From positions 1 through 64,000 of the forward strand of contig CAINLR010000116.1 of NCBI GenBank assembly GCA_903850425.1: a DNA stretch of 64,000 nt, given 5' to 3'. Position numbers and translations under genes: made by a program. The notes beneath the pieces are model-generated. The model ran no database searches and was not told where the DNA came from. It was given only the letters and a program-made list of their open reading frames with translations. The number at the start of each line of letters is the position of its first letter. The first letter of the stretch is position 1. Below, one piece after another: positions 10,789-27,868 of the stretch. Origin of the DNA: an uncultured Verrucomicrobia subdivision 3 bacterium (lineage in GTDB: Bacteria; Verrucomicrobiota; Verrucomicrobiia; Limisphaerales; UBA11358).

Positions 10789-11553
10789 ATGAATCCAGAA
10801 AGTCTCGAACAACTAATAAGGCGACTTCTTGCCCAGTGCGGCAACCCGCTGGACGCACGAGCGATTGTTCGGCTTGTTTGTAAAAATGGAGTAACCGCAA
10901 CCCGCAGTGAGGTAAATTCATTTTTATACCGCGCCGAAAAGAGAGGCGAAGTATTGAAGGCTTGTAAGCCTGATCAATCCGCGCCTGTATGGAGCGTTGC
11001 GTTGGCGGGCAAATGTCCTGCTATTACAAATAAATCGCCAGGAATACTGGTAATCCCCACTATCACACCGAAGGTTGAATACCTAAAATCCGAACAGACC
11101 AAATCTACAATAATTGTTCAACCGCCGAACGCACAAGAGCACCAACCACCAGCTACCCTTACCATCCCGCCTTTACCTGCGAACATCCAAACTGAGATGC
11201 CCCCGGGGCACGCTGCGGCGGAAGTTCCTGGGCCGGCTGATCCAGATGCTGGGCAACCGCAGGTATGGCCAGGTGGCCGAGTATCCACAACTGAAACTCC
11301 CCGGCCGCTGGAGGGGAGCGCACAACTGAAAGAAGCTCGCAAAGCTCGGCCTAATTCCTTGGTTAAACCTTCACGTGAGAAATTTGACATCAAATGTCAC
11401 ACCTGCGAAAAGCAATTTCAGAGTATAAACTCAAAGGAACTGTATTGCTCTATCTTCTGCAAAGACTATGCCAGATCAAAGGCAAAACCATACCCGGGAG
11501 AACAGCGCTCCAATATGGCAAGGCAGATTATCCAAGGTGGTGACCGCTGGTAG
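10789..11553 (+). CDS. hypothetical protein with winged-helix-like N-terminus and Cys cluster
   Basis: A 254-residue protein in three parts. Residues 1-70 (LIRRLLAQCGNPLDARAIVRL and SFLYRAEKRGEVLK) look like a winged helix of the kind that binds DNA or protein. Residues 80-190 are a Pro-rich, low-complexity linker. Residues about 200-240 hold a CHTC pair followed by CSIFC, which could bind zinc. It lies 3 bp after the coiled-coil membrane protein, suggesting that it works with it. Its 3' end overlaps the 3' end of the convergent integrase gene by 26 bp. Confidence 0.6.
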   Translation: MNPESLEQLIRRLLAQCGNPLDARAIVRLVCKNGVTATRSEVNSFLYRAEKRGEVLKACKPDQSAPVWSVALAGKCPAITNKSPGILVIPTITPKVEYLKSEQTKSTIIVQPPNAQEHQPPATLTIPPLPANIQTEMPPGHAAAEVPGPADPDAGQPQVWPGGRVSTTETPRPLEGSAQLKEARKARPNSLVKPSREKFDIKCHTCEKQFQSINSKELYCSIFCKDYARSKAKPYPGEQRSNMARQIIQGGDRW

Positions 11554-12724
11554 GAGAATGCACATATCGACGACTGGTCCTGGCACTCGCATGACCCAGG
11601 AGCTGTTTGATCTGTGACATGGACAAGCTCTCAGCCAGCCGCTTCGCCAGACCGTCCTTGTCAATCGCGTGGTATCGCTCGCTCGCGGCCGAGTGCCGGA
11701 TGCAGTGGTAGGACTTGCCCAGGATGCCAATGCGCTCGCACAGGCGGGTGAACTGCACCGACAGCAGCGACCGACGACGCACATCGCTGATGATCTCGTG
11801 TTGCTCGGGAAATAGGCGCGTCTGACTGGTCACCGGGATTTGCGTCACCATCGTCTCCAGTTCCACCGGCAGCGGGTGCTCGATGCGCTGGTTGGTCTTG
11901 TCCATCCAGACGATCAGCTTGCCCGGCTCGCCAAAGCAGCGCCATTCGAGGCCGGCGATGTCCGACAGCCGCAGGCCGGTTTGCGCCGAGCACCGCACGG
12001 CAAACAGCCAGAAGAACAGCTCTGAGTGTTTCCCGCCGAGTTTGCCCAGCTTCACCGCTCGACCGTGGTCAGTGTATTCGCTGGCGTTCTCAACGCGCGC
12101 CATGTCTTGGCCGAGCGTCCGCAGCTCCGATTTCAAATGCGCCGTGAGTTGATCCAGTTCCGCCGCCGTGAAGGGCTGGCGCTGAGCCGGCTCCTTCTGG
12201 TCGTGGCTGAGGACGCTGTAATCAATGCCGATGGCTTGGGACGGATCCGCCGCGACCCAGCCGTTGGCGCAACAGAAGGCGAAGAACGTGTGGAGATGGC
12301 CCAGCGCGAGCTTGCGTGACCCCTGGCCGCGTTCCTTGTCGGCATCGTTGACCCAATCGGCGATGTGCGTCTCAGTGACCGCCGTGGGCGGCAGGGAGCC
12401 AATCTTCATTTCACGGATCCACGCGCTGAGCGTGATGGCGTTTTCCGCGATGGTCTTGGGCGAACGTCCGCGCGTCTTCATCCATTCTCGGAATGGCGCG
12501 ACCGCCTTGAGCAACGTCATGCGTTTGCCGGTGAGGATGCGGCCGACCACTTCGCGGGACAGCTTGCCGGCCAGCGCCGCCCGCTCCATCTCCGCGATGC
12601 CCGCCTGTTTCACGATGTCCTTGGCGCAGGTGAGGTCGCTTTGCTTGGTGGAGATCATGCGCCGCGCACCTGTCGCCGTGCGGAACTGGGCATGATAGAT
12701 ACCGTCAATTTTTTTGAGTTTCAT
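11528..12724 (-). CDS. tyrosine recombinase (phage-type integrase)
   Basis: A 398-residue site-specific recombinase. The catalytic set is visible: Arg in TGLRLSDIAGLEW, HCIRHS for the His-x-x-Arg pair, then LLGHASARTSRRYVH with the second His and the nucleophilic Tyr near the C-terminus. The N-terminal half, with a SPKTI segment, is the usual core-binding domain. I start at the ATG at 12724; an upstream TTG at 12799 would add 25 residues that overlap the small gene before it. It lies more than 14 kb from the tRNA, so it probably belongs to a different element from the integrase at 26,479. Confidence 0.85.
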   Translation of the reverse strand: MKLKKIDGIYHAQFRTATGARRMISTKQSDLTCAKDIVKQAGIAEMERAALAGKLSREVVGRILTGKRMTLLKAVAPFREWMKTRGRSPKTIAENAITLSAWIREMKIGSLPPTAVTETHIADWVNDADKERGQGSRKLALGHLHTFFAFCCANGWVAADPSQAIGIDYSVLSHDQKEPAQRQPFTAAELDQLTAHLKSELRTLGQDMARVENASEYTDHGRAVKLGKLGGKHSELFFWLFAVRCSAQTGLRLSDIAGLEWRCFGEPGKLIVWMDKTNQRIEHPLPVELETMVTQIPVTSQTRLFPEQHEIISDVRRRSLLSVQFTRLCERIGILGKSYHCIRHSAASERYHAIDKDGLAKRLAESLSMSQIKQLLGHASARTSRRYVHSPTSGHHLG

Positions 12725-12752
12725 GGTTTTGCCTGAATGTGAAAGGGTGATG

Positions 12753-12923
12753 TTAAAACTCTGTCTGCCTGCTCTGTGACGCCTGTCGATCGGCGGCAAG
12801 CTGCGCGGCCTCTTTGGTGATGCGTTCGCCGTCTGTGGATTGTTCTGTCGTCAATGTGAAGGATTCCGGCTCATGCCAATGGATTTCAAGCTGACGCGAC
12901 TTGGGTTGGTGGGGCTTTTTCAT
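12753..12923 (-). CDS. small hypothetical protein (56 aa)
   Basis: A short gene between the AAA ATPase and the integrase. It encodes 56 residues starting MKKPHQPKSRQLEIHW and ending QSRQTEF, highly charged and Gln-rich. A GGAGG sequence lies upstream on the minus strand, and its ATG overlaps the TGA of the ATPase gene (ATGA). These two signs support real translation. No family is recognised. Confidence 0.5.
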   Translation of the reverse strand: MKKPHQPKSRQLEIHWHEPESFTLTTEQSTDGERITKEAAQLAADRQASQSRQTEF

Positions 12924-13546
12924 ACGCAAGCAACCTCCGGTGCCAGTGATTCCACCCAGTTGTCGGCGACGGACATGGCCACGGTCTCGGCGGCGCGCAC
13001 GTTGCCGTTGGATTGAATCGCGATAGAGCCCGCCATCGCCGCCCCGAGGCGCGGAAACTTGGCTTGCAGCCAGTCGGCGATGACCTCCAGCGGGATCGGA
13101 TCGAAGTAGAGGATCTTGAAACGCGACTGAAGTTGCTCCGGTAGCTCTTCGACCGTGCGATTGGTGGTGCCAATGAAGACGGTTTTGAGCGGCAGCTTGT
13201 CGAGATACGAACGCAATTCGTTGTGCGCTGCCGTCGAGGCGGCATCGATCTCATCGACGATCTGCACTCGCATCCCGAACATGGGATGGAACCGACCATG
13301 CAGTTGCCACTCGCGGATGCGATCCACCGAGCAGGACTGGCCGTTCAAGGATTCGATACCCAGCTCGTGGGTGACGAGAGCGCGAGCCAGCAGGTCGGCG
13401 ATGGCGCTTTTGCCCAAGCCCGGCTTGCCGGTGAACAGGTAACGCCGGTCCATGATGGAACAGCCCGGCGCGGTAAGCTTGGGGATTTGGTTGAACAGCA
13501 GCGTGGCGATCTTGCCGCTTTTGCCAATGAAGGATTGTGGTGTCAT
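12920..13546 (-). CDS. small AAA+ ATPase (clamp-loader/RarA-like)
   Basis: A 208-residue ATPase. Residues 40-47 are a Walker A motif (GKPGLGKS), VQIVDEIDAAS is Walker B, IGTTNRT is sensor 1, and LQSRFKILYFD contains the candidate arginine finger. The layout resembles the ATPase core of phage and plasmid clamp loaders or RarA, without their C-terminal collar. Upstream in-frame codons would extend it by 92 residues, but that extension looks like a shadow of the next gene; the ATG at 13546 gives a compact product. Its neighbours are an unknown gene 10 bp upstream and the 56-aa gene overlapping its end. Confidence 0.75.
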   Translation of the reverse strand: MTPQSFIGKSGKIATLLFNQIPKLTAPGCSIMDRRYLFTGKPGLGKSAIADLLARALVTHELGIESLNGQSCSVDRIREWQLHGRFHPMFGMRVQIVDEIDAASTAAHNELRSYLDKLPLKTVFIGTTNRTVEELPEQLQSRFKILYFDPIPLEVIADWLQAKFPRLGAAMAGSIAIQSNGNVRAAETVAMSVADNWVESLAPEVACV

Positions 13547-13556
13547 AGAGTGAGGT

Positions 13557-13901
13557 TCAGGCGAACAAGGCAGATGCTTCGGCCAGCTCGGCGGAGCTGA
13601 ACGGTGCATCCTTGGTGTCAGTGGTTGATGGGTTGGTGGATTTGCCCCGGCGTTTGAAGGGAATGGGTTTGGTGCAACTGTGGCTCCAGAACGACACGAT
13701 GCCACTGGGCAAGGTGTGGCCACGTTTGGCGAAGCGAAATCCGTATTCGCTGATCGAATCGCGCACGGCCTGGTTGTGCTCGCCGCGCAGATCGCAGCAC
13801 AGCCATAACCAGTCGCGCTCAACTTCGACAGCGGTGTGGAGGGTTGGGTGATTGGCGTGGAGCCACGCCAAGACTTCAGTCATGGGGAGTTTTTCTTTCA
13901 T
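13557..13901 (-). CDS. hypothetical protein of a mobile-element type
   Basis: A 114-residue protein with WLWLCCDLRG, then EYGFRFAKRGHTLPSG, then FWSHSCTKP. The Trp/Cys/His pattern looks conserved-protein-like rather than random, but I cannot name the family. The C-terminal 35 residues are Ser/Thr/Ala-rich and probably flexible. It is 10 bp upstream of the small AAA ATPase on the same strand, so it may be a partner of it. I chose the ATG at 13901 over an in-frame upstream start that would add nine residues. Confidence 0.6.
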   Translation of the reverse strand: MKEKLPMTEVLAWLHANHPTLHTAVEVERDWLWLCCDLRGEHNQAVRDSISEYGFRFAKRGHTLPSGIVSFWSHSCTKPIPFKRRGKSTNPSTTDTKDAPFSSAELAEASALFA

Positions 13902-14041
13902 AGATTGATTGTCACCAAACACGGGCAAAGTGCTGGCTGGTGGAGATGCGGCGGGAGAGAACGCGGGGCTGGACCGGCACGTTTCACCTACAGGCGGGCG
14001 GTCCGTCGCTCCAAAATTTATGGGCGGCGTGAAATACTGCG

Positions 14042-17630: not shown

Positions 17631-18032
17631 TCAGTCCTCATCCACCATCATCAGCGTTATGCTGGGTTGCGGGTCATCCACATCCAGCGGCCCGCACGTC
17701 GCGATGAGTTTCACCAATCGCGCGGCGCGGTCATCATTGCGAACATAGAGCGCGACCGGAATGCGATCCACGCCTGTTCGGGCGCGGAGGATGCCGAATC
17801 GCGTCATCCACACGAGGTCCCAGGTTCTTCCAGCTTCATCCTGACCGGTGACGCCTTCGGGCACGGCGACGTAGGTGTCGAACACGGCGCGCGTCAGGAA
17901 CATGGGATATTTGATGCCAGCTTCTTGCGCGACAGTGGACACGTCCACTTGCACGCCATCGGCGAGGGCTTGTTTGCGGGTGTAGGCGTAAATGACTTCG
18001 CCAAACAGTGAGGAGTCTTCAGGTGTTTTCAT
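17631..18032 (-). CDS. DUF6573-like protein
   Basis: A 133-residue protein. The start (SLFGEVIYAYTRKQALADGVQVDVSTVAQEAGIKYP) matches a family typically encoded on plasmids, phages and integrative elements, with the pattern LFGxVIxAYTRxQAxxDGVLVDVTxxAxEAGxxxP. No enzymatic activity is known to me for it. It is the last gene of a minus-strand cluster that includes a RadC-type protein and a CobS-like ATPase, 11 bp after the vWA-like gene, and it supports a mobile-element origin for that cluster. Confidence 0.75.
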   Translation of the reverse strand: MKTPEDSSLFGEVIYAYTRKQALADGVQVDVSTVAQEAGIKYPMFLTRAVFDTYVAVPEGVTGQDEAGRTWDLVWMTRFGILRARTGVDRIPVALYVRNDDRAARLVKLIATCGPLDVDDPQPSITLMMVDED

Positions 18033-18043
18033 AAAGAGTAGAT

Positions 18044-18853
18044 TCAGGTGAGTTCACTGGCTGTGTAGTGGTTCAGGATCTTCTGCACCCAGCCGACCGG
18101 ATCGGTGTAAATCTGTTTGAAGCTGTCATGGGCCGGCGGGATGATCAGGTCGTGGTCGCTGGCACCGAGCATTTCCCGGCACGCCGCGATGGTGCGAGAT
18201 TCCTCATCAAACCCAGCATCCCGCAAGATGCGCGCCCAGCCGCCGTCGAACGCATCCTCGACATAGCCGATGGTCATGCCCAGGTTGCGGTCGAAGCCAA
18301 TGGAACCGAGTGCCACGCACGCCTCGGACAGACAGAGCGGTGACGAGTTCACGCGCACCATGATGTTGCATTCGCCATGCTCGCCGTTCCCTTTGAAGGG
18401 CGTAAACGTCCACAGCTCGACCGGTCGCGACTGACAGAGCGCCATCGTCGCTGCCAACACCGCCACGCCGCGCCGTTGCAACTGTCGCCAATCCATCATG
18501 CCGCTGCTGCTCGTGCAACAGAACACCCGCAGCGGAACACTTTCACTCACGCAGTCGTCGAGCTTTCGCATGGATTCGGGCTGGCCGATGAGATAATCCG
18601 GCACACAGGGGAACGCACCGGCCACCGCACCACTCCATTGCCGGCTCTTGACCTCGATGCTGGTCTGCAACTTGTCCATCAGCCGCTCGGCTTCCGCGAC
18701 GAGCTGCGTGTTGCCGTGGATGGCGAACTCAACCGATTCGGCCAGTGCTTCACCCGCGCCGCTCCGGCCCCAGTCCCGCGCTCGCCGGTGACCGAGTAGG
18801 GTTTTGACGTGCCTCCCATAAGCAGCCACGGATTCGAATTGGTGGATCGCCAT
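18044..18853 (-). CDS. hypothetical protein, possible degenerate vWA-like partner of the AAA ATPase
   Basis: A 269-residue protein. Near residues 105-150 a hydrophobic strand (LRVFCCTSSSG) is followed by a helix (RRGVAVLAATMAL) and a strand (RPVELWTFTPF). This order resembles the first part of a von Willebrand A domain, but the metal site that would be DxSxS reads CTSSS, so it would be degenerate. I do not claim a definite family. Its ATG lies 1 bp after the stop codon of the AAA ATPase gene. CobS/MoxR-type ATPases commonly work with a vWA partner, which is why I suggest this. Confidence 0.6.
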   Translation of the reverse strand: MAIHQFESVAAYGRHVKTLLGHRRARDWGRSGAGEALAESVEFAIHGNTQLVAEAERLMDKLQTSIEVKSRQWSGAVAGAFPCVPDYLIGQPESMRKLDDCVSESVPLRVFCCTSSSGMMDWRQLQRRGVAVLAATMALCQSRPVELWTFTPFKGNGEHGECNIMVRVNSSPLCLSEACVALGSIGFDRNLGMTIGYVEDAFDGGWARILRDAGFDEESRTIAACREMLGASDHDLIIPPAHDSFKQIYTDPVGWVQKILNHYTASELT

Positions 18854-18854
18854 A

Positions 18855-20243
18855 TCATGCCTCGGGGTTGATCTGGTTCCACTGATCGTTCGTCATGCCC
18901 TTCTTGATGCAGGACTTGATGACCTCCTTGCGCTCGATGCCGGCGGCGAGCAACTTCTCGCCGTTGAACGTGGCGCGCGGCGAGACGATGACCTTCAGTC
19001 CGTGGCGCACGATGTTGGCGCGGACGGCCTGCACGAACTGGACCCACTCCTGATGACCACAGAGGGCGCGTTCCAACTTCTCATCAATGCCCCAGTAAAG
19101 CGTGGCGAAGCGGTCGGAGAAGGCGGCATCCTGCTTCATGCGGCCGACGTAGTCGAAGGTCGCACCGCCGAGCCAGGTGTTGGCGGTGGCCAGGATGATG
19201 CAATCCTTGTGGCGTTCAACCATGCCATCCGGGAAGTCGCACAGATGGTTCGACAGCGCCCCGTTGAAGGACAGCACGGCCGGTGGCAACGAGGCGTCAA
19301 CCTCGTCGAAGCAATAGACGCCGCCGTGCTGCCACGCCTTGCGGAAGGCCGGACTGATCAACTTGCCGCCGGCATCAATGAAGCCCTTGAGCTTGTATTC
19401 GGTGTCAATCGCTCCATTGTAGAAGAACGACAAACCCAGCGCCTTGGCCACGTTCTGAGCGCCAAAAGTTTTGCCCGAGCCGGTGGGACCAGTGATCAGC
19501 AGGTTGACTCGCGCCGCTGCCATCTTGAGCAACAGCGGGAACTCCTCGTGAACCAGTCCGGTGATCGGTTGCGATTCACCGGCCGCCGTGACCAGCACGA
19601 CCCGGCGAGCAGTATTGGCCAGTGCCGCCTCGATCAACTGTTGCACCCGCTCAACCGGGAATGAGCCGTTGCCCAGATGCTTCTTCAATTTGTCCTCGAA
19701 CTCACGATCCGCATCCAGCAACGCCTCACACACCACCGAACGCGCGCACTTGTCAGCGATGGCTTCGACTGCCTCGGCATCCACGCCCTGGGCCGACACG
19801 CGGCCTTGCAGGAGCTTGGCCAGCAAGTCCGCCACTTCGCTGTCACCGCCGACCGGCGACGCACTGACAGGCTTCACAGCGCGTGAAACCGGCTGCCAGT
19901 CGTCTTGCGGTTCCTCGACCACGGCCGGCTTTACCTCGGCGGCGACGTCGATCGGGTCCACTCGTTTGCTGCCATTGCCGGCCTGACCGGCGAGCTTGCT
20001 CCAATCCGGCTTACCCTTGTCAGCACAGAGGGCGCTGAACACGAGCTTGTAGAGCGCGGACTTGGCGTCGTTGCTGATGAGTGGATCCGAATGGTAGTTC
20101 GGCAGCAGGAAGTGTTTGCCGAGCGTGATTGCCCGCAGATGGGTCGCCACGCGGAGTTGCGCCTCGTTGCCGACCTTGCGGATGGCGGAGGTCAGCCACT
20201 CGAATTGCTTTTCAATGGCTTCAGTCGTTTTGGTGTCAGTCAT
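18855..20243 (-). CDS. AAA+ ATPase of the CobS/MoxR type
   Basis: A 462-residue protein. Residues 1-230 are unrecognised, with a low-complexity linker near 100-135. From residue 245 a AAA+ core is clear: Walker A GPTGSGKT (252-259), Walker B CFDEVD (311-316), sensor 1 ATANT (352-356) and Arg in SDRFATLYW (about 378). The KLKGFIDAGGKL segment between Walker A and B is typical of the dynein-related (AAA_5) CobS group. On plasmids and phages such ATPases remodel protein or nucleic-acid complexes. It is followed closely by a possible vWA-like gene and preceded, 4 bp away, by a RadC-like gene. Confidence 0.8.
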   Translation of the reverse strand: MTDTKTTEAIEKQFEWLTSAIRKVGNEAQLRVATHLRAITLGKHFLLPNYHSDPLISNDAKSALYKLVFSALCADKGKPDWSKLAGQAGNGSKRVDPIDVAAEVKPAVVEEPQDDWQPVSRAVKPVSASPVGGDSEVADLLAKLLQGRVSAQGVDAEAVEAIADKCARSVVCEALLDADREFEDKLKKHLGNGSFPVERVQQLIEAALANTARRVVLVTAAGESQPITGLVHEEFPLLLKMAAARVNLLITGPTGSGKTFGAQNVAKALGLSFFYNGAIDTEYKLKGFIDAGGKLISPAFRKAWQHGGVYCFDEVDASLPPAVLSFNGALSNHLCDFPDGMVERHKDCIILATANTWLGGATFDYVGRMKQDAAFSDRFATLYWGIDEKLERALCGHQEWVQFVQAVRANIVRHGLKVIVSPRATFNGEKLLAAGIERKEVIKSCIKKGMTNDQWNQINPEA

Positions 20244-20247
20244 AAAA

Positions 20248-20736
20248 TCAGGAATAGAAGAAGCCCAATTCGCGGAGACTCGCCCAGGGTTTCAGGCGTT
20301 CTGGTGTGGCCTGGCCCAAAATCACATGGTCGAGCACCTCGATCCTGAGCAGTTGCCCGGCCCGAATCAGGTCGCGCGTCACCTTGATGTCAGCCTCCGA
20401 AGGGGACGGCTCGCCGCTGGGATGGTTATGCACCAGTGCGATGGCGGAGGCGTTGGTGACGATGGCCGCTTTGAACACTTCCCGGGCATGCACGAGCAAG
20501 GTGTCCAGCGTGCCGGTGCTGATGATCTCAAAGCCGATGGCATTGCGCCGCGTGTTGAGATGCACCACGATGAAGTTTTCCACGTCGGGCCGGTAGATCA
20601 CGCTCTCAGCCAGTCGTGGCCGCAGGTAATCCACCAATCGTTCGGGGTTGTCGAGCGCATGGCCCGAGGGCAGCGCGTCGTTGAAGCGCGTCAGCTTGAA
20701 CTCGGAGCCGCGCAGTTTAGTTCGCCAGATGGTCAT
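20248..20736 (-). CDS. RadC-type JAB/MPN domain protein
   Basis: A 162-residue protein with the JAMM metal motif of RadC-type JAB domains: HNHPSG at residues 103-108 and Asp at about 116 in the segment SEAD, preceded by the IVVHLNTRRN strand. It lacks the N-terminal helix-hairpin-helix of chromosomal RadC, as is common for copies on mobile elements. The ATG at 20736 has a good ribosome binding site (AAGGA) and gives a compact protein; an in-frame start 216 bp upstream adds no recognisable sequence. RadC-like proteins are standard passengers of integrative elements; their activity is unresolved. Confidence 0.85.
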   Translation of the reverse strand: MTIWRTKLRGSEFKLTRFNDALPSGHALDNPERLVDYLRPRLAESVIYRPDVENFIVVHLNTRRNAIGFEIISTGTLDTLLVHAREVFKAAIVTNASAIALVHNHPSGEPSPSEADIKVTRDLIRAGQLLRIEVLDHVILGQATPERLKPWASLRELGFFYS

Positions 20737-20924
20737 TGTTGTCCTTTGCCGAGAGCAGTGGTTTGACTCTGCGCTCGGAAGAAGAGCCGCGTGGGTAGAG
20801 GCTGGTGAGCCTGGGTGGTGAGGTGAACCGGTGGCGCATACGCGGCGGATGCGTTCCGGCCTGGGTGAGTAAAGTGAATGACCGGCGGCACACTGTCGGC
20901 GTCGTGATCCTTGCGGATGGCCAC
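20733..20924 (-). CDS. possible small protein (63 aa, GTG start)
   Basis: A short frame starting GTG at 20924 and encoding MAIRKDHDADSVPPVIHF and a Pro/Thr/Gln-rich tail. Its TGA overlaps the ATG of the RadC-like gene by 4 bp, which suggests translational coupling. No ribosome binding site is visible and no family is recognised. If it is not real, 20,737-21,085 holds no gene I can see. Confidence 0.35.
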   Translation of the reverse strand: MAIRKDHDADSVPPVIHFTHPGRNASAAYAPPVHLTTQAHQPLPTRLFFRAQSQTTALGKGQQ

Positions 20925-21085
20925 CGTGAAGCGACCATCCAGTAATCGTCATGCCCGTGTTTTGAACCGCCGGTCAAAACTCGTGAGTGGTGAATGAATC
21001 CCGCACCTGCCTGCGAGATTCGCGCACGGGCTTGTGACCGTGCTGCCGCATTAACCGCACGCCACCGCGCGGCCACTCTGCGAAA

Positions 21086-21517
21086 TTACTTCTTGGCCAT
21101 TGCCGTCATTGCTCTGAGGTCTTCCACGTCCATCCCCAAGCTCGCCGCCAAGGCAACTTCCAATTCAGCCTGTGTCGCATCGGCCGCCTTAACCGCCACC
21201 TTCGGCCGGCCAAACCGCTCAATCGCCGAAGTTGCCTTGGCATCGACCACAAGTGGAACATACCCAGCCCGCTTGAGACAAACCCGCGCAATGTCCGACT
21301 CAACCCATCGAATGTCTGACTCGCCGCGCAGCACTTCGCCGACAGCATCATTCAGCTTGGTGCCCTTCAAAGTCGGGTCCTTCAGCTTCAGTGATGCCTT
21401 GATCTCTTTGGCGCTCTTAGGCTGTGCAAACATGATGCGACTACCCAGCAAGTTACCCTTGCCGCTCACAATTTGTGTCACTTGGTTGGAATTGATCTTT
21501 TCAATCGCTAATTGCAT
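21086..21517 (-). CDS. hypothetical protein
   Basis: A 143-residue protein with a strong ribosome binding site (AGGAG) before the ATG at 21517. It starts MQLAIEKINSNQVTQIVSGKG and ends in an Ala/Lys-rich helix. The composition is that of a soluble, mostly helical protein. No family is recognised. It heads the minus-strand cluster 17,631-21,517 and sits right beside the palindrome-rich non-coding region, so an accessory or replication-linked role is possible. Confidence 0.55.
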   Translation of the reverse strand: MQLAIEKINSNQVTQIVSGKGNLLGSRIMFAQPKSAKEIKASLKLKDPTLKGTKLNDAVGEVLRGESDIRWVESDIARVCLKRAGYVPLVVDAKATSAIERFGRPKVAVKAADATQAELEVALAASLGMDVEDLRAMTAMAKK

Positions 21518-22715: not shown

Positions 22716-23879
22716 TCATTTGATTAGCTCCTTTTCAGGCTGTGAAAAGCGCGCGAACAAAATTCTCGGATTGGTGCCCCGCCGTTTCTCTCGCCATTCG
22801 TATAATGCGCAGTCGTCCACGAGTTCAGCGAGCATCGGATTGATTTTGTTCAACGCGACACCAGCGGCATTGGCTTTTGAACGGAGTGCATCTTTGGCAA
22901 TCGGTTTGCCTGCCGGGACATGAACGAGCACGTCTTCCTTGGTATGGATTCTCCTGGCATTTTGGGTTTCCGGCATTTCCGATGGGTGAGCTTCACGCCA
23001 GTAAATCTCTCCCGGTTGGTCAGCATGAGCTATTAACTTGGCGAAGGTCTTCGTGACACCGTCAATTTCCAGCCAGTCCAGCCGAGCGCCACGCTTGGCT
23101 ACGCGCAGTTCAAAAACTGAATGCGAACCCAAGTTCCGCAATGCTATCACTGCCCGCGCCCAGTTTGCCCATTCGGCCGAACCACCGCCGAGATAGGCAA
23201 AATCGCCACCACTCCAGTCGGGTTTTTCGCGCCCCGAAGGCGGCTTGTTCGTGTGATGCACCACCACTACGCCACAGTCATATTCTCGAATGAGGGGATT
23301 CAACTGGTTCCGCAGAAACGCACCGACATCTTTTTGAGAACTGGATTCCCCGCCGAGATACGAAAGCGCCGGATCAATCCATAGCAGATCGGGACGATGT
23401 TCATTCAGTAACGGACGAACGGTTTCACTGAAAAAACGACCACTGGTTCGCATATCTTCACGGATCACGAGGATGTTCAGCATCGCCATCTGCTTTTCTT
23501 CCTCCGTCAGCTTCAAACCCGCGATGACCCCGTCACGCATCTCCGCGAGGTCGCCTTCATCGTTCTCCGCCTGGATGAGCAGGGATTTCAGAGGACGTGC
23601 CGGCACAATTCCAAAGGCTGGACGCCCCAACGCCCAAAGAATCATAGCCTGCATGGAAAGCGAACTTTTGCCAACGCCCGTGGGGCCAACCAATAGCATA
23701 CCTCCGCCACGGCATAAAAACCGATTACGCAACAACTCCGTCGGGTCATCTTTGTTGTGTGCCACCAATTCACCTAGCCTCTTGGCAACAGGTGATGCTA
23801 AGGCGCTCAGCGTCGGAGCTGTCGGGATGTCGTTGGCAACACCCCACGAACTCAACTCGTTTTGAATTGATTCACTCAT
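22716..23879 (-). CDS. RepA-like AAA ATPase (hexameric helicase type)
   Basis: A 387-residue protein. Walker A is GPTGVGKS at residues 65-72. DLLWIDPALSYLGGESS holds the Walker B Asp, and GVVVVHHTNKP is the sensor-type motif of RepA-like RecA-fold ATPases. ALIQAEND-type sequence (LLIQAENDEGDL) follows. Plasmid RepA of this type is a 5'-3' replicative helicase. It follows the primase-like gene by 6 bp on the same strand, the usual helicase/primase arrangement on mobile elements. The non-coding interval after it may contain the origin. The C-terminal 100 residues may be a winged helix. Confidence 0.8.
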   Translation of the reverse strand: MSESIQNELSSWGVANDIPTAPTLSALASPVAKRLGELVAHNKDDPTELLRNRFLCRGGGMLLVGPTGVGKSSLSMQAMILWALGRPAFGIVPARPLKSLLIQAENDEGDLAEMRDGVIAGLKLTEEEKQMAMLNILVIREDMRTSGRFFSETVRPLLNEHRPDLLWIDPALSYLGGESSSQKDVGAFLRNQLNPLIREYDCGVVVVHHTNKPPSGREKPDWSGGDFAYLGGGSAEWANWARAVIALRNLGSHSVFELRVAKRGARLDWLEIDGVTKTFAKLIAHADQPGEIYWREAHPSEMPETQNARRIHTKEDVLVHVPAGKPIAKDALRSKANAAGVALNKINPMLAELVDDCALYEWREKRRGTNPRILFARFSQPEKELIK

Positions 23880-23885
23880 TTTCAG

Positions 23886-24890
23886 TTAGTTGAAGATCGG
23901 CACTCCACTCGGCAGTGGATTCAAATAGAGCAATCGCTGGCAGCGCTCGCCGCGCATTGCCTGCGGCAACCGCGACAAGCGCACCGCCGTCAACGCGCCT
24001 CGATCCGCGCCCAGCGTGATCAAAACCGTTTTGATTGGCTCTATACGTCGGTCCCAATCGGACTTGCTGGTTGCGTCCAGTCTCGCCAGCGCGTGAATCG
24101 AGCGCCCGCCCGACTCGCAGATGCACGCAATCCTCAGCGGCATTTGCACCAGACATCGCAGCCAGTCCTCGGCGTCGGCCTCATCGCTCTCCAGCACGGC
24201 ATAGCGGAACGCCGTCACCGCCTCCTCAGACCGCCGGGACAAGTTTCCATCGCAGCGCGGATTCGGAAAATAGCCACCGCTCACCGGTTGCGGCAGAAAC
24301 CACACCCCATCTTTTCCGGCCGGCAAATGACGTTGCTGGATCGCATCGCTCCGGTCGGCGTCCCACAAAAACTGTCCCTGGGATTTAATCTCCGAGAAAA
24401 CCACCACTTTTTCCCCTGAGCGGGGCGGATAAAGATGCCGTAGCACACTCGCGGAATCGTGTCGAGCCACCGGCATCGGTGACCGCTCTGTCAGAAACCG
24501 GACGACATCGTGGATCTCCGCCACCTTGTTCGCGACCCGCCGCAGCACCTCCGGCCGGAACCTCGGTTTCGGTGGTGGCGGTGGCAACGGCTTCGGCGGC
24601 CTCGCGCTGCCAGCGCCCGCCCCGTCATCCAGCAAATGCCCGCGTGGCGTCTGGTGTGCCGCGTGCGCTGCCGACTTGATCTTGTGCCTAAGTTCGCCCT
24701 CGCTCCACAGCGGCGAACAGCGCTGATTGTATTCGCGCAGCAGCGTCAACGCCTCGGCCTCATCGAGCCCGAACCCATGCACCAGCGTCGTCGCGACTAG
24801 GAACGTGGCGTTGTGGCCGTTCTGGCCGCTGACTGCTGCCGGACACTTGGCGACATAACGCCGAGCGCGTTCGATTGGAGAAATCTTCAT
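23886..24890 (-). CDS. primase-like protein of a mobile element
   Basis: A 334-residue protein. Residues 1-75 (RARRYVAKCPAAVSGQNGHNATF, then LLREYNQRCSPLWSEGELRHKI) match the PriCT-like helical domain found in phage and plasmid primases and DUF3987-type proteins. A Pro-rich linker (PPKPLPPPPPKPRF) follows. The C-terminal part contains ACICESGGRSIHALARLDA, a strand resembling the catalytic region of small archaeal/eukaryotic-type (AEP) primases. It lies directly before the RepA-like ATPase, 6 bp away, fitting a helicase-primase pair. I chose the ATG at 24890; an upstream in-frame start adds 12 residues. Confidence 0.7.
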   Translation of the reverse strand: MKISPIERARRYVAKCPAAVSGQNGHNATFLVATTLVHGFGLDEAEALTLLREYNQRCSPLWSEGELRHKIKSAAHAAHQTPRGHLLDDGAGAGSARPPKPLPPPPPKPRFRPEVLRRVANKVAEIHDVVRFLTERSPMPVARHDSASVLRHLYPPRSGEKVVVFSEIKSQGQFLWDADRSDAIQQRHLPAGKDGVWFLPQPVSGGYFPNPRCDGNLSRRSEEAVTAFRYAVLESDEADAEDWLRCLVQMPLRIACICESGGRSIHALARLDATSKSDWDRRIEPIKTVLITLGADRGALTAVRLSRLPQAMRGERCQRLLYLNPLPSGVPIFN

Positions 24891-24926
24891 AAGTTTATCA
24901 ACGGGGAAGGTGAATTCTCCATGCAC

Positions 24927-25181
24927 TTATTTCCGCCCGGCAGCTTTGGCGTCGAAGTGGGCTTTTACAATAATTGGGTCGAAAAAAACTCGACGGCCAA
25001 TTTTTACAAAAGGCAGCGTTCTGGCCTTTTGTTGGTCTCTCAGCCAGCGTAGGCTTGGACGTCTGGTTTCATCGAAAAGTATTTCGAGAAGTTTGTTGGC
25101 GTCAACATAGCGTGTCGCTAATTGACCCAGTTGCTCGGCAAGTGATTTAGTTTCATTTTTCACAAGGGGACGATCGAGCAT
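24927..25181 (-). CDS. helix-turn-helix DNA-binding protein (AlpA/Xis-like)
   Basis: An 84-residue protein. The core RYVDANKLLEILFDETRRPSLRWLRDQQKARTLPFVKIGRRVFFDPIIV has the layout of small excisionase-type (MerR-like winged helix) proteins: a turn-forming segment, a tryptophan-containing recognition helix, and the PFVKIGRRVFF wing. These bind DNA and control excision or replication-gene expression. It lies immediately upstream of the primase-like gene, on the same strand. An in-frame TTG at 25223 is an alternative start. The neighbouring integrase makes an excision role likely. Confidence 0.75.
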   Translation of the reverse strand: MLDRPLVKNETKSLAEQLGQLATRYVDANKLLEILFDETRRPSLRWLRDQQKARTLPFVKIGRRVFFDPIIVKAHFDAKAAGRK

Positions 25182-25268
25182 CCCCGTTGCGACGCATCTT
25201 GGGGTCTCCCTTCGCAACGACAAATAACCAATGTTTACAGGCCAATCAGTCCGACTGAAACATCGGGA

Positions 25269-26293: not shown

Positions 26294-26482
26294 TTATGTT
26301 GGATGTTGTTCCGGCGTTGCTGGCCAATTCGGCGCGATAGCAAACCACTCCGCCGCCGCCGCCGCCGGCCGCATCCTCTTCAAGTAGTTCGTGCGGATCA
26401 CCTGAGGGCTGTTGCCCGCCTCATCCGCCACGCGCGAAACGTCGGCGCACTCGGCCACGCGAGCGAAGATGCTGGCACTCAT
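26294..26482 (-). pseudogene. C-terminal fragment of a second tyrosine recombinase
   Basis: The 62-residue frame reads ADVSRVADEAGNSPQVIRTNYL, then RPAAAAAEWFAI. This parallels the end of the adjacent intact integrase (ADIARVADEAGNSVEVIKGNYL, then KPAEAARWFAI), including the nucleophilic Tyr. Only the last 60 residues are present. It directly follows the intact gene, its start overlapping that stop by 4 bp. It looks like a remnant of a related recombinase from an earlier or tandem insertion. Confidence 0.75.
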
Positions 26483-27720
26483 TTGACCCCCTTGCGTGGC
26501 GGCACAATCGCGAACCAGCGGGCGGCCTCGGCCGGCTTGATGACCTTGAGATAATTTCCTTTGATGACTTCCACGCTATTACCAGCCTCGTCGGCCACGC
26601 GCGCAATGTCTGCGGATTCGGCTTTGCGATAGCTGATGTAGCTGTGGCGCAGTGCATTTTTCTTCCACTTCAAGCCCGCCTTTTCGGCCACCTTCGGCAG
26701 TTGCATCCAGATGTTGGCAAACTCGCAAATCGGTCCCGCCTCCCGCCGGTGTTTCAATAGCCATTTTTTGAGGTTGTCCTTCACCGGCACCATCCGTCCC
26801 ACCTTGGTCTTGGCGTTGTCGGCATAAATGGAAATAAACGATTCCCCGTCTTCCAGCGCCACGTCCTTCCAATCCAGACGGGCAATTTCTTCATGCCGGA
26901 TCCCGGCAAATCCGTTGATGGCCAGAAATGGCACAAGGCGGCTGTCTGCCGCCGCCAAGATTTTCCTGAACTCATCGGGGGTGTAAATCTCGATGGTGCC
27001 GCGTTTCGCCGCCGAATACTTGCGCGCGTGCTCCAGCCAATCGGTGCCTTTCGCCAGATAGCCCCGGGCCACGCAGAAACGGTTAAAGTAGCCGATGATG
27101 TCCCGATAGTTGCGCTTGCTCTTCTCGGACATCGCCCCGCCCTTGAGCTTGGTCAGCTTCGCCAGCCATTCATCCACGGCGACCGGTTGCACGTCCTCCA
27201 CGTTCTCGTGGAAGTCCGCCACGAACCGGCCCAGCAGAACCGCAAGTTGGTGCATCCGGCTTTCGTCCACATTGGCCCGGTCCCGCTCCTTCAATTCCTC
27301 CACAGCCGCCGCGACTGAAATTTTGGTCAAATTCACCGCATGATGCTTCAGCCAGAACCGGCAGGCATCTTGAATGGACGTGCGATTTTGCAACAAGTTG
27401 ATCGCCTCCACATATTCCTTCGCCACGTCGTCTATCTCATTTTCTATCCCTTGCAGCACAGCCCGGGCGCGGGTGTAGGCGTGGGCATCGCTGGATGTAA
27501 GATTAAGAACTTCAGCCTGGCCGGCGGCAATTTTGTCCACGGCGGCATCTGCGGCTTTGCGGGCATCAGCCAGCGTCGAGCGCCAGACCAGCTTTCGCTG
27601 CCCATTTGCGCGATAATCCAGCACAAAACGGGTGACGCCATTTTTGAGGGTGGGGCGAATGCGGACAACGATGCCGCTTTTCTTGAACTCCGTAACGTCT
27701 TTTGATTCGTTGTCTTTCAT
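26479..27720 (-). CDS. tyrosine recombinase beside tRNA-Ser (island integrase)
   Basis: A 413-residue integrase. Catalytic elements are Arg in FAGIRHEEIARLDW, the NALRHSYISYR box (the usual HxxR position begins with Asn), and EAGNSVEVIKGNYL with the nucleophilic Tyr. The second catalytic His is replaced by Asn in AGNS, a variant seen in one branch of phage-type integrases. The N-terminal 200 residues form the arm- and core-binding domains. It lies 60 bp from the 3' end of the tRNA-Ser gene, transcribed away from it, as is typical for an integrase that uses the tRNA 3' end as its attachment site. Confidence 0.85.
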   Translation of the reverse strand: MKDNESKDVTEFKKSGIVVRIRPTLKNGVTRFVLDYRANGQRKLVWRSTLADARKAADAAVDKIAAGQAEVLNLTSSDAHAYTRARAVLQGIENEIDDVAKEYVEAINLLQNRTSIQDACRFWLKHHAVNLTKISVAAAVEELKERDRANVDESRMHQLAVLLGRFVADFHENVEDVQPVAVDEWLAKLTKLKGGAMSEKSKRNYRDIIGYFNRFCVARGYLAKGTDWLEHARKYSAAKRGTIEIYTPDEFRKILAAADSRLVPFLAINGFAGIRHEEIARLDWKDVALEDGESFISIYADNAKTKVGRMVPVKDNLKKWLLKHRREAGPICEFANIWMQLPKVAEKAGLKWKKNALRHSYISYRKAESADIARVADEAGNSVEVIKGNYLKVIKPAEAARWFAIVPPRKGVK

Positions 27721-27780: not shown

Positions 27781-27868
27781 TGGCGGAGAGAGTGAGATTT
27801 GAACTCACGGTAGTGTTACCTACGCACGCTTTCCAGGCGTGTGCCTTAAACCACTCAGCCATCTCTCC
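27781..27868 (-). tRNA. tRNA-Ser (GGA anticodon)
   Basis: The minus strand starts GGAGAGATGGCTGAGTGG. It has the long variable arm of class II tRNAs, an anticodon loop CTGGAAA (GGA) in a CACGC/GCGTG stem, the GTTCAAATC T-loop and an encoded CCA end (27781-27783). The acceptor stem GGAGAGA pairs with TCTCTCC. It marks the probable right edge of the accessory region. Confidence 0.95.

Follow-up and report, generated by a model that had tools for sequence, protein, structure and literature searches.

Several AAA+ ATPases are known to work with a von Willebrand factor type A (vWA) partner: NorQD, CbbQO and Rea1 all act by vWA-assisted remodelling by the AAA+ ring, and the vWA domains of Rea1/midasin and of NorD serve such rings. 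MoxR-class ATPases are also encoded with partner genes in phages and conjugative elements: MoxR subunits are reported in Bacillus phage 0305phi8-36 (PMC2147016), as is a MoxR-type pair on pCAR1 with ORF100-103 conserved in R478, Rts1, SXT and R391 (PMC2642839), and the annotation of pRA1 lists AAA, DUF3150 and VWA genes. In phages the families phrog_249 and phrog_1909/DUF7192 form a further pair, and it is this pair that we found in a minus-strand operon (21517 to 17631) of an integrative element in the window, by which we mean the whole 64,000-nucleotide (nt) stretch analysed, the first 64 kb of contig C116 from the 6.9-Mb genome of an uncultured Verrucomicrobia subdivision 3 bacterium. The heart of the cluster is probably a phage-type AAA+/vWA remodelling machine. 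The operon has the following features (aa, amino acids; MIDAS, metal-ion-dependent adhesion site):

21086-21517, minus strand: first gene, 143 aa, no family match above cut-off.
21026-21082, minus strand: match to the covariance model of the Twister-P5 ribozyme (RF02684), 3 nt past the stop of the first gene.
20248-20736, minus strand: RadC-like protein of the JAB/JAMM fold, 162 aa, motif HNHPSGEPSPSEAD, PF04002.
18855-20243, minus strand: AAA+ ATPase of the CobS/NorQ/midasin class, 462 aa, PF00004 and phrog_249.
19569-20243 and 18855-19568, minus strand: N-domain (likely cassette-specific) and AAA core of that ATPase.
18044-18853, minus strand: DUF7192 partner, 269 aa, PF23822 and phrog_1909, predicted vWA-like fold with first MIDAS motif CTSSS.
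17631-18032, minus strand: DUF6573 protein, 133 aa, PF20213.

Both window proteins match the families of the phage pair and their genes are neighbours; the locus differs from that pair in lying in an integrative element, in its RadC and DUF6573 genes and ribozyme match, and in its longer ATPase N-domain. It shares a MoxR-class ATPase and partner gene with the pairs of jumbo phages and plasmids, but those partners are called vWA by their authors, whereas the window vWA is cryptic and a RadC gene lies ahead of the ATPase.

The ATPase is a AAA+ protein of the MoxR/CbbQ/NorQ/CobS/midasin class, as the earlier note had recognised from the sequence in calling it CobS/MoxR-like. It matches PF00004 (1e-8) and phrog_249 (3e-41), and its profile, searched against the PDB, matched midasin (1e-33), CobS (2e-11), NorQ (6e-7) and CbbQ (1e-6). 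The Walker A (GPTGSGKT) and Walker B (DEVD) motifs are present with their key positions invariant. For structural comparison the ATPase and its partner were each modelled singly. In the ATPase model, with a mean predicted local distance difference test score (pLDDT) of 77, the core mostly exceeded 90 and the N-domain was low. The closest folds were CbbQ (Z 20.6 over 232 residues, 3.2 A) and NorQ (Z 20.4, 227 residues, 2.9 A), followed by Mdn1 (Z 16.4, 222 residues, 3.5 A). The model has a pre-sensor-1 hairpin, strands 334-337 and 340-343, preceding the strand assigned to sensor 1.

The partner matches PF23822/DUF7192 (8e-7, 29.1 bits against a cut-off of 27) and phrog_1909 (5e-13). Its model (pLDDT 92.3, predicted template modelling score 0.88) had as its top Foldseek match chain G of the NorQD complex, which we take to be NorD (E 7e-4), and then Rea1-MIDAS (E 1.1e-3). 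A second aligner placed Rea1-MIDAS (Z 7.6, 168 residues, 4.1 A) and NorQD chain G (Z 7.1, 188 residues, 8.1 A) in a tie, with many vWA domains next. As the nearest structures are the vWA domains of Rea1/midasin and NorD, the guess of the earlier note, a degenerate vWA region with CTSSS in place of DxSxS, gained support, and the CTSSS motif itself was confirmed. The separate comparisons of ATPase and partner agree, and thus point to vWA-assisted AAA+ rings as the kind of system. The first MIDAS motif was scored in the 57 sequences that went into the partner model: it opens with D in 23 of them, with N in 15 and with C in 4, and DxTxS is complete in 8 of the 57 and DxSxS in none. A vWA-like fold with a decayed first metal-site motif is supported by modelling, but not proven.

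Compared with NorQ-NorD and CbbQ-CbbO, the locus has a similar ATPase core (Z about 20) and a partner closest to the NorQD chain and Rea1-MIDAS, but here the partner consists of one short domain standing alone, and its first MIDAS motif is degraded. Rea1/Mdn1 gave the best ATPase sequence match and, tied with NorQD, the top partner Z score, but is one protein of about 4,900 residues rather than two small genes.

The resemblance to CobS-CobT and its viral cobST versions, a CobS-related ATPase with a paired vWA-type partner, offers another explanation: the pair could be cobaltochelatase motor subunits that work with the CobN of the host to give more cobalamin. The window partner is short and MIDAS-poor and the element contains no CobN, although a CobN/ChlH-type gene is present in the genome on another contig (C89). 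CobT is much longer than 269 aa, and with CTSSS the window partner has no intact MIDAS. Midasin outranks CobS in the ATPase profile match, the CobS value of 2e-11 notwithstanding, and when a viral library was ranked against the partner, seven named DUF7192 proteins and five unnamed ones came first, followed by named phage CobT/VWFA proteins from 2e-6. The ATPase is moreover found in phages of Staphylococcus, Listeria and Lactobacillus, hosts that are not known to have CobN; neither Bacillus subtilis nor Lactococcus lactis, used as controls, gave a PF02514 match. A cobalamin role has been proposed for the cobST pair of tailed viruses (PMC8651126), but for the pair studied here we consider it quite unlikely.

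A scan of viral contigs with the ATPase alignment gave 154 ATPase relatives, the best 80 of which were combined with six other loci, five of them used in building the partner profile; these 86 loci reduce to 54 at 75% ATPase identity. A DUF7192 open reading frame (ORF) was present in 85 of the 86 (80 of 81 when the five profile-building loci are set aside), and in the sole locus without one, L096, the contig ends inside the ATPase gene. The partner lies 3' of the ATPase in 82 loci, with gaps of -345 to 459 nt (uncorrected ORF starts), and 5' of it in three (L012, L077 and L079). Among named phages, phiM5 and G1 have the DUF7192 gene directly after the ATPase gene, P106B and Krypton555 have it after small ORFs within 0.5 kb of the ATPase, and an Enterococcus phage has it ahead of the ATPase. 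One phage locus (L064, 5833-7598) carries two consecutive DUF7192 genes behind a single ATPase.

The ATPase matched 423 records of a phage collection, mostly Staphylococcus, Mycobacterium and Listeria phages, with Lactobacillus phages among them. Some of the listed records label it 'porphyrin biosynthesis', a label that phrog_249 also carries, and the library annotation of phrog_1909/DUF7192 is unknown function. At 1e-8 phrog_249 is unspecific and matches many other ATPases (47 of 49 genomes and 11 of 14 controls); hence only the three strongest phrog_249 places were used. The proposal of the earlier note that six genes form an undescribed module was not supported: the widespread unit is the ATPase-DUF7192 pair, which is already represented in family libraries. 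What is new is the likely fold of the partner and the cassette variant, and once DUF7192 is read as a probable vWA cochaperone of cryptic kind, a testable machine model takes the place of the 'porphyrin biosynthesis' label. Among open-licence papers we found none on DUF7192, DUF6573, phrog_249, phrog_1909 or PF23822, the single match being to PHROG 19091.

Searches that started from the partner itself recovered little. It was not found in plasmids, a single-sequence tblastn search of phages gave phiM5 only, and a direct scan of viral contigs gave no relative. Class-wide, the Pfam model and alignment A3 each found it in one of 384 genomes, in both cases that of the window; another search found it in two of 146 genomes, including G017, which presumably lay outside the 384-genome samples. 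G034 was scored in the 384-genome searches and gave no partner match. The window genome has one partner copy and one full ATPase copy, both in the window; elsewhere in it (L010, contig C185, 7885-7998) a stretch of 38 residues matches ATPase residues 298-335 at 89% identity and may be what is left of a further copy.

Turning to the operon as a whole, the earlier note had counted five or six minus-strand genes within a few bases of one another. Five are present, and the last four are indeed tightly packed (RadC, ATPase, partner and DUF6573 genes separated by 4, 1 and 11 nt), but the first gene lies 349 nt from RadC. The strong ribosome-binding site claimed for the first gene is there, as AGGAG ahead of its ATG. 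The sixth candidate, a 63-aa ORF (20733-20924), was not supported: it overlaps the RadC start and lacks a good counterpart in the sister cassettes described below: there is a gapped 38% match (E 4e-5) in the same place in G034 and a match of 15 residues in G017, and the stretch that holds the ORF is partly conserved at the DNA level. The RadC-type and DUF6573-like assignments were borne out by PF04002 (4e-36, 124 bits against a cut-off of 22) and PF20213 (2e-19, 70.3 bits against 27), respectively. As the RadC protein falls below the NCBIfam cut-offs for full-length RadC (121 against 180), it was counted as a RadC domain only. Its start is most likely the ATG at 20736, because conservation in both sister cassettes begins there.

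Gene order was compared across genomes, as the earlier note had suggested. The four-gene order of first gene, RadC, ATPase and partner is kept in three genomes of one genus, those of the window, G017 and G034; DUF6573 is added in only two of these, and G519, a genome of another family, has the pair without these companions. G017 carries all five genes, ordered as in the window but with different flanks (HsdM on one side, an integrase on the other); identities are 77% for the long RadC frame, 76% for the ATPase, 88% for the partner and 83% for DUF6573. RadC is 85-93% identical among the three cassettes. Of the first gene product, the sister cassettes share with the window only the last 30-35 or so residues (57-62%; in G017 the last 35, 57%). 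In G034 the first gene, RadC and ATPase are followed by a gene that overlaps the ATPase end and occupies the place of the partner; this protein gave no BLASTP match at 1e-6 and no profile match at 0.01 to the window partner. Two other candidates at that locus were rejected: a DUF6573 gene, the best match being 22 residues at E 0.034 with no Pfam match, and an integrase fragment beside tRNA-Met, which had no integrase match.

The ATPase itself is a mosaic. Against G034 its N-domain is 66% and its core 39% identical, whereas against G017 the N-domain is 60% and the core 89.5% identical. As core and partner are both divergent in G034 while the N-domain and RadC are alike, ATPase core and partner have been replaced jointly there, in the one case seen. 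Such a joint exchange suggests which parts work together. An N-domain search of 320 genomes of the order found four, namely those of the window, G017, G034 and G519, and the domain is likely a cassette-specific attachment. G519 has an ATPase and a clear DUF7192 partner (1.4e-34), and no RadC, first-gene or DUF6573 match was found in 16 kb. Hence the ATPase and partner gene are the constant part (four of four, one partner being weakly linked) and the other genes are accessory. RadC turned up in just two of the 86 loci, L008 and L037, and DUF6573 and the first gene in just one, L008. L037 was the sole viral locus used with a RadC (1.5 kb downstream, PF04002 4.7e-24), and none of the viral loci used showed DUF6573 or the first gene.

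These comparisons bear on whether the genes are simply unrelated and adjacent by chance. RadC and DUF6573 do occur elsewhere in the window genome without the pair, and the G519 pair stands without RadC, first gene or DUF6573. For the pair, however, chance is contradicted by the 85 of 86 loci, and for the cassette a four-gene order kept in three genomes with different flanks speaks against it. We regard chance adjacency as extremely improbable.

A feature overlooked in the earlier note is the Twister-P5 match, which covers the full model (58 positions) at 63.8 bits against a cut-off of 37.6 (E 1.8e-11); its predicted folding energy is -34.2 kcal/mol (z -2.0). The matched stretch is likely a self-cutting RNA, as judged from sequence. 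Twister and hammerhead ribozymes have been described as associated with phage genes (PMC10085705), and a match inside an operon provides a concrete case for asking what bacterial twister ribozymes do. Twelve other loci, the G017 and G034 cassettes among them, gave no match, and neither did 14 phage loci or, under stricter filters, the 48 further genomes of the genus. A twister DNA pattern gave at least 136 sites in at least 120 viral stretches, and among those 120 stretches L235 and L196 carry the ATPase-DUF7192 pair on the same strand, where the twister precedes the ATPase by about 1.1 kb in L235 and the pair by about 2 kb in L196. The pattern occurred in none of 89 ATPase-bearing stretches. 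Among the 136 phage sites listed, 98 have an ORF that ends within 150 nt upstream; these ORFs share no common gene family, the largest cluster having three members. A resemblance of the first gene product to the phage protein upstream of the L235 twister was rejected as weak (19 of 1000 shuffles scored as high and an unrelated upstream ORF scored higher). One viral contig of 5.5 kb (L166, 1-5471) has five twister-pattern sites, all on a single strand and spaced at about 0.5-0.95 kb.

Several of these results weigh against a vWA-assisted remodelling machine that exchanges its parts as described. In the ATPase fold ranking sigma-54 activators and dynein come right behind Mdn1 (Z 15-16), so by fold only CbbQ and NorQ stand out. 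The structure prediction called for by the earlier note put the partner nearest to vWA domains, but with modest PDB matches (Foldseek template modelling score about 0.26, Z below 8, a level at which the tool warns of a possibly common arrangement), and a PDB search with the partner sequence profile turned up no vWA structure. The distances of ATPase core and of partner are correlated over 47 loci (r 0.82, none of 2000 permutations as high), which speaks for the pair but is expected of adjacent co-inherited genes. Evidence that the G034 partner is homologous is weak (88% by hhalign, E 3e-6, in the vWA region; 11.5 bits in a filter-free search), the joint exchange is a single replacement, and the ribozyme match occurs in one of three cassettes.

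By analogy with NorQ-NorD and Rea1/midasin, the ATPase of the proposed machine would form a hexameric ring on which the vWA protein would dock to present a client, and ATP hydrolysis would pull on or remodel that client. The client would serve the reproduction of a phage or mobile element rather than be a host chelatase. The twister, if active, would cleave the transcript and so put the first gene and the RadC-motor genes on separate messages.

The gene upstream of the ATPase may indicate what such a client is. In 9 of the 54 non-redundant loci a HExxH protein of about 200 aa is encoded directly upstream of, or overlapping, the ATPase start. Of the 112 plus-strand ORFs that lie upstream at up to 1.2 kb, 8 carry HExxH, compared with 4 of the 534 lying downstream or farther off (Fisher test, one-sided, 1.7e-4, kinship ignored); when overlapping ORFs are included the figures are 9 of 185 and 4 of 534 (1.1e-3, kinship ignored). 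All nine proteins match SprT-like PF10263 (E up to 1, best 1e-6) and phrog_6361, and the SprT-like profile matched no solved structure. The same slot holds RadC in the three island cassettes and the 118-aa protein described below in G519. Jumbo phages are reported to have a fused metallopeptidase-vWA protein with MoxR, for which PMC7824862 proposes an assembly role, citing Acidianus two-tailed virus. The pair could likewise be a chaperone of virion assembly or packaging that remodels or helps process structural proteins. The SprT-like protein in nine loci would fit this, but the SprT-bearing loci are interrelated and the count is thus not independent, phage neighbours also include primase, helicase and nucleotide-metabolism genes, and none of the genes examined next to the three Verrucomicrobia cassettes was recognised as a structural one. 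An assembly chaperone seems to us rather unlikely.

RadC may itself be the client of the remodelling machine. A more specific version, offered tentatively and in our view doubtful, is a split 'mini-midasin' in which the ring ATPase and a metal-poor vWA adaptor would extract or remodel a metalloprotein client encoded directly upstream (a SprT-like protease in one phage group, RadC in these islands). Client slot, N-domain and motor core would be swapped as modules and the ribozyme would set the ratio of first gene to motor.

The remaining features of the element lie on either side of the operon:

11528-12799, minus strand: tyrosine integrase 1; the integrase adjoining the G017 cassette is 79% identical.
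12920-13546, minus strand: clamp-loader-like small AAA protein (start inferred from a relative), 78% identical in G017.
13557-13928, minus strand: protein of about 118 aa (start uncertain), 78% identical in G017.
22716-25223, minus strand: RepA-like ATPase, primase-like and excisionase-like proteins, each with a relative on contig C191, where the cassette is absent.
26479-27720, minus strand: tyrosine integrase 2, 60 nt from the tRNA-Ser gene at 27781-27868.

The earlier note had taken the combination next to a RepA-like/primase pair as a sign of a dedicated system for replication, anti-restriction or defence. That link was not supported: the genes recur on C191 without the ATPase-partner pair, and neither had a match (E 0.01) near the sister cassettes, for which 18 kb of G034 and 58 kb of G017 were covered; hence they are a separate module. 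The C191 island (L143, 22001-33899, at a tmRNA) comprises an integrase, excisionase-like, primase-like and RepA-like proteins (54-76%), small and large terminase and DUF6573; it contains no ATPase-partner pair and looks like a phage satellite or prophage remnant. Relatives of integrase 2 lie beside tRNA-Pro in G017 and beside the tmRNA on C191. No attachment (att) repeat of the tRNA-Ser end was found in the window.

Defence or anti-restriction by the island has some neighbours in its favour: an HsdM gene adjoins the G017 cassette, and another RadC of the window genome directly follows an ArdC-type antirestriction gene (L017, 1545-2908; PF08401 8e-32, PF18818 6e-36). No HsdM turned up in the window or in the stretches searched in G034 (18 kb) and G519 (16 kb), and PADLOC gave only weak matches on nine proteins, at most 20.8 bits (mad8 20.8, JAB 20.1, IetA). 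The pair is common in phages such as the Staphylococcus kayviruses, which are lytic, and a phage function therefore fits better than host immunity. We consider a defence system very improbable.

The small AAA and 118-aa proteins (12920-13928) adjoin integrase 1. A relative of the 118-aa protein is encoded directly upstream of the G519 ATPase gene (40%, E 5e-32, which is the independent value, as one 118-aa profile included the G519 protein). DUF6573 has six copies in the window genome, five of them away from the pair, and a member of the 118-aa family lies near all five of these places (L141-L145; two of the five built the profile). A second HsdM-like coding stretch (L139, 18050-19408), 54% identical to the HsdM by the G017 cassette, lies a few kb from it on the same contig.

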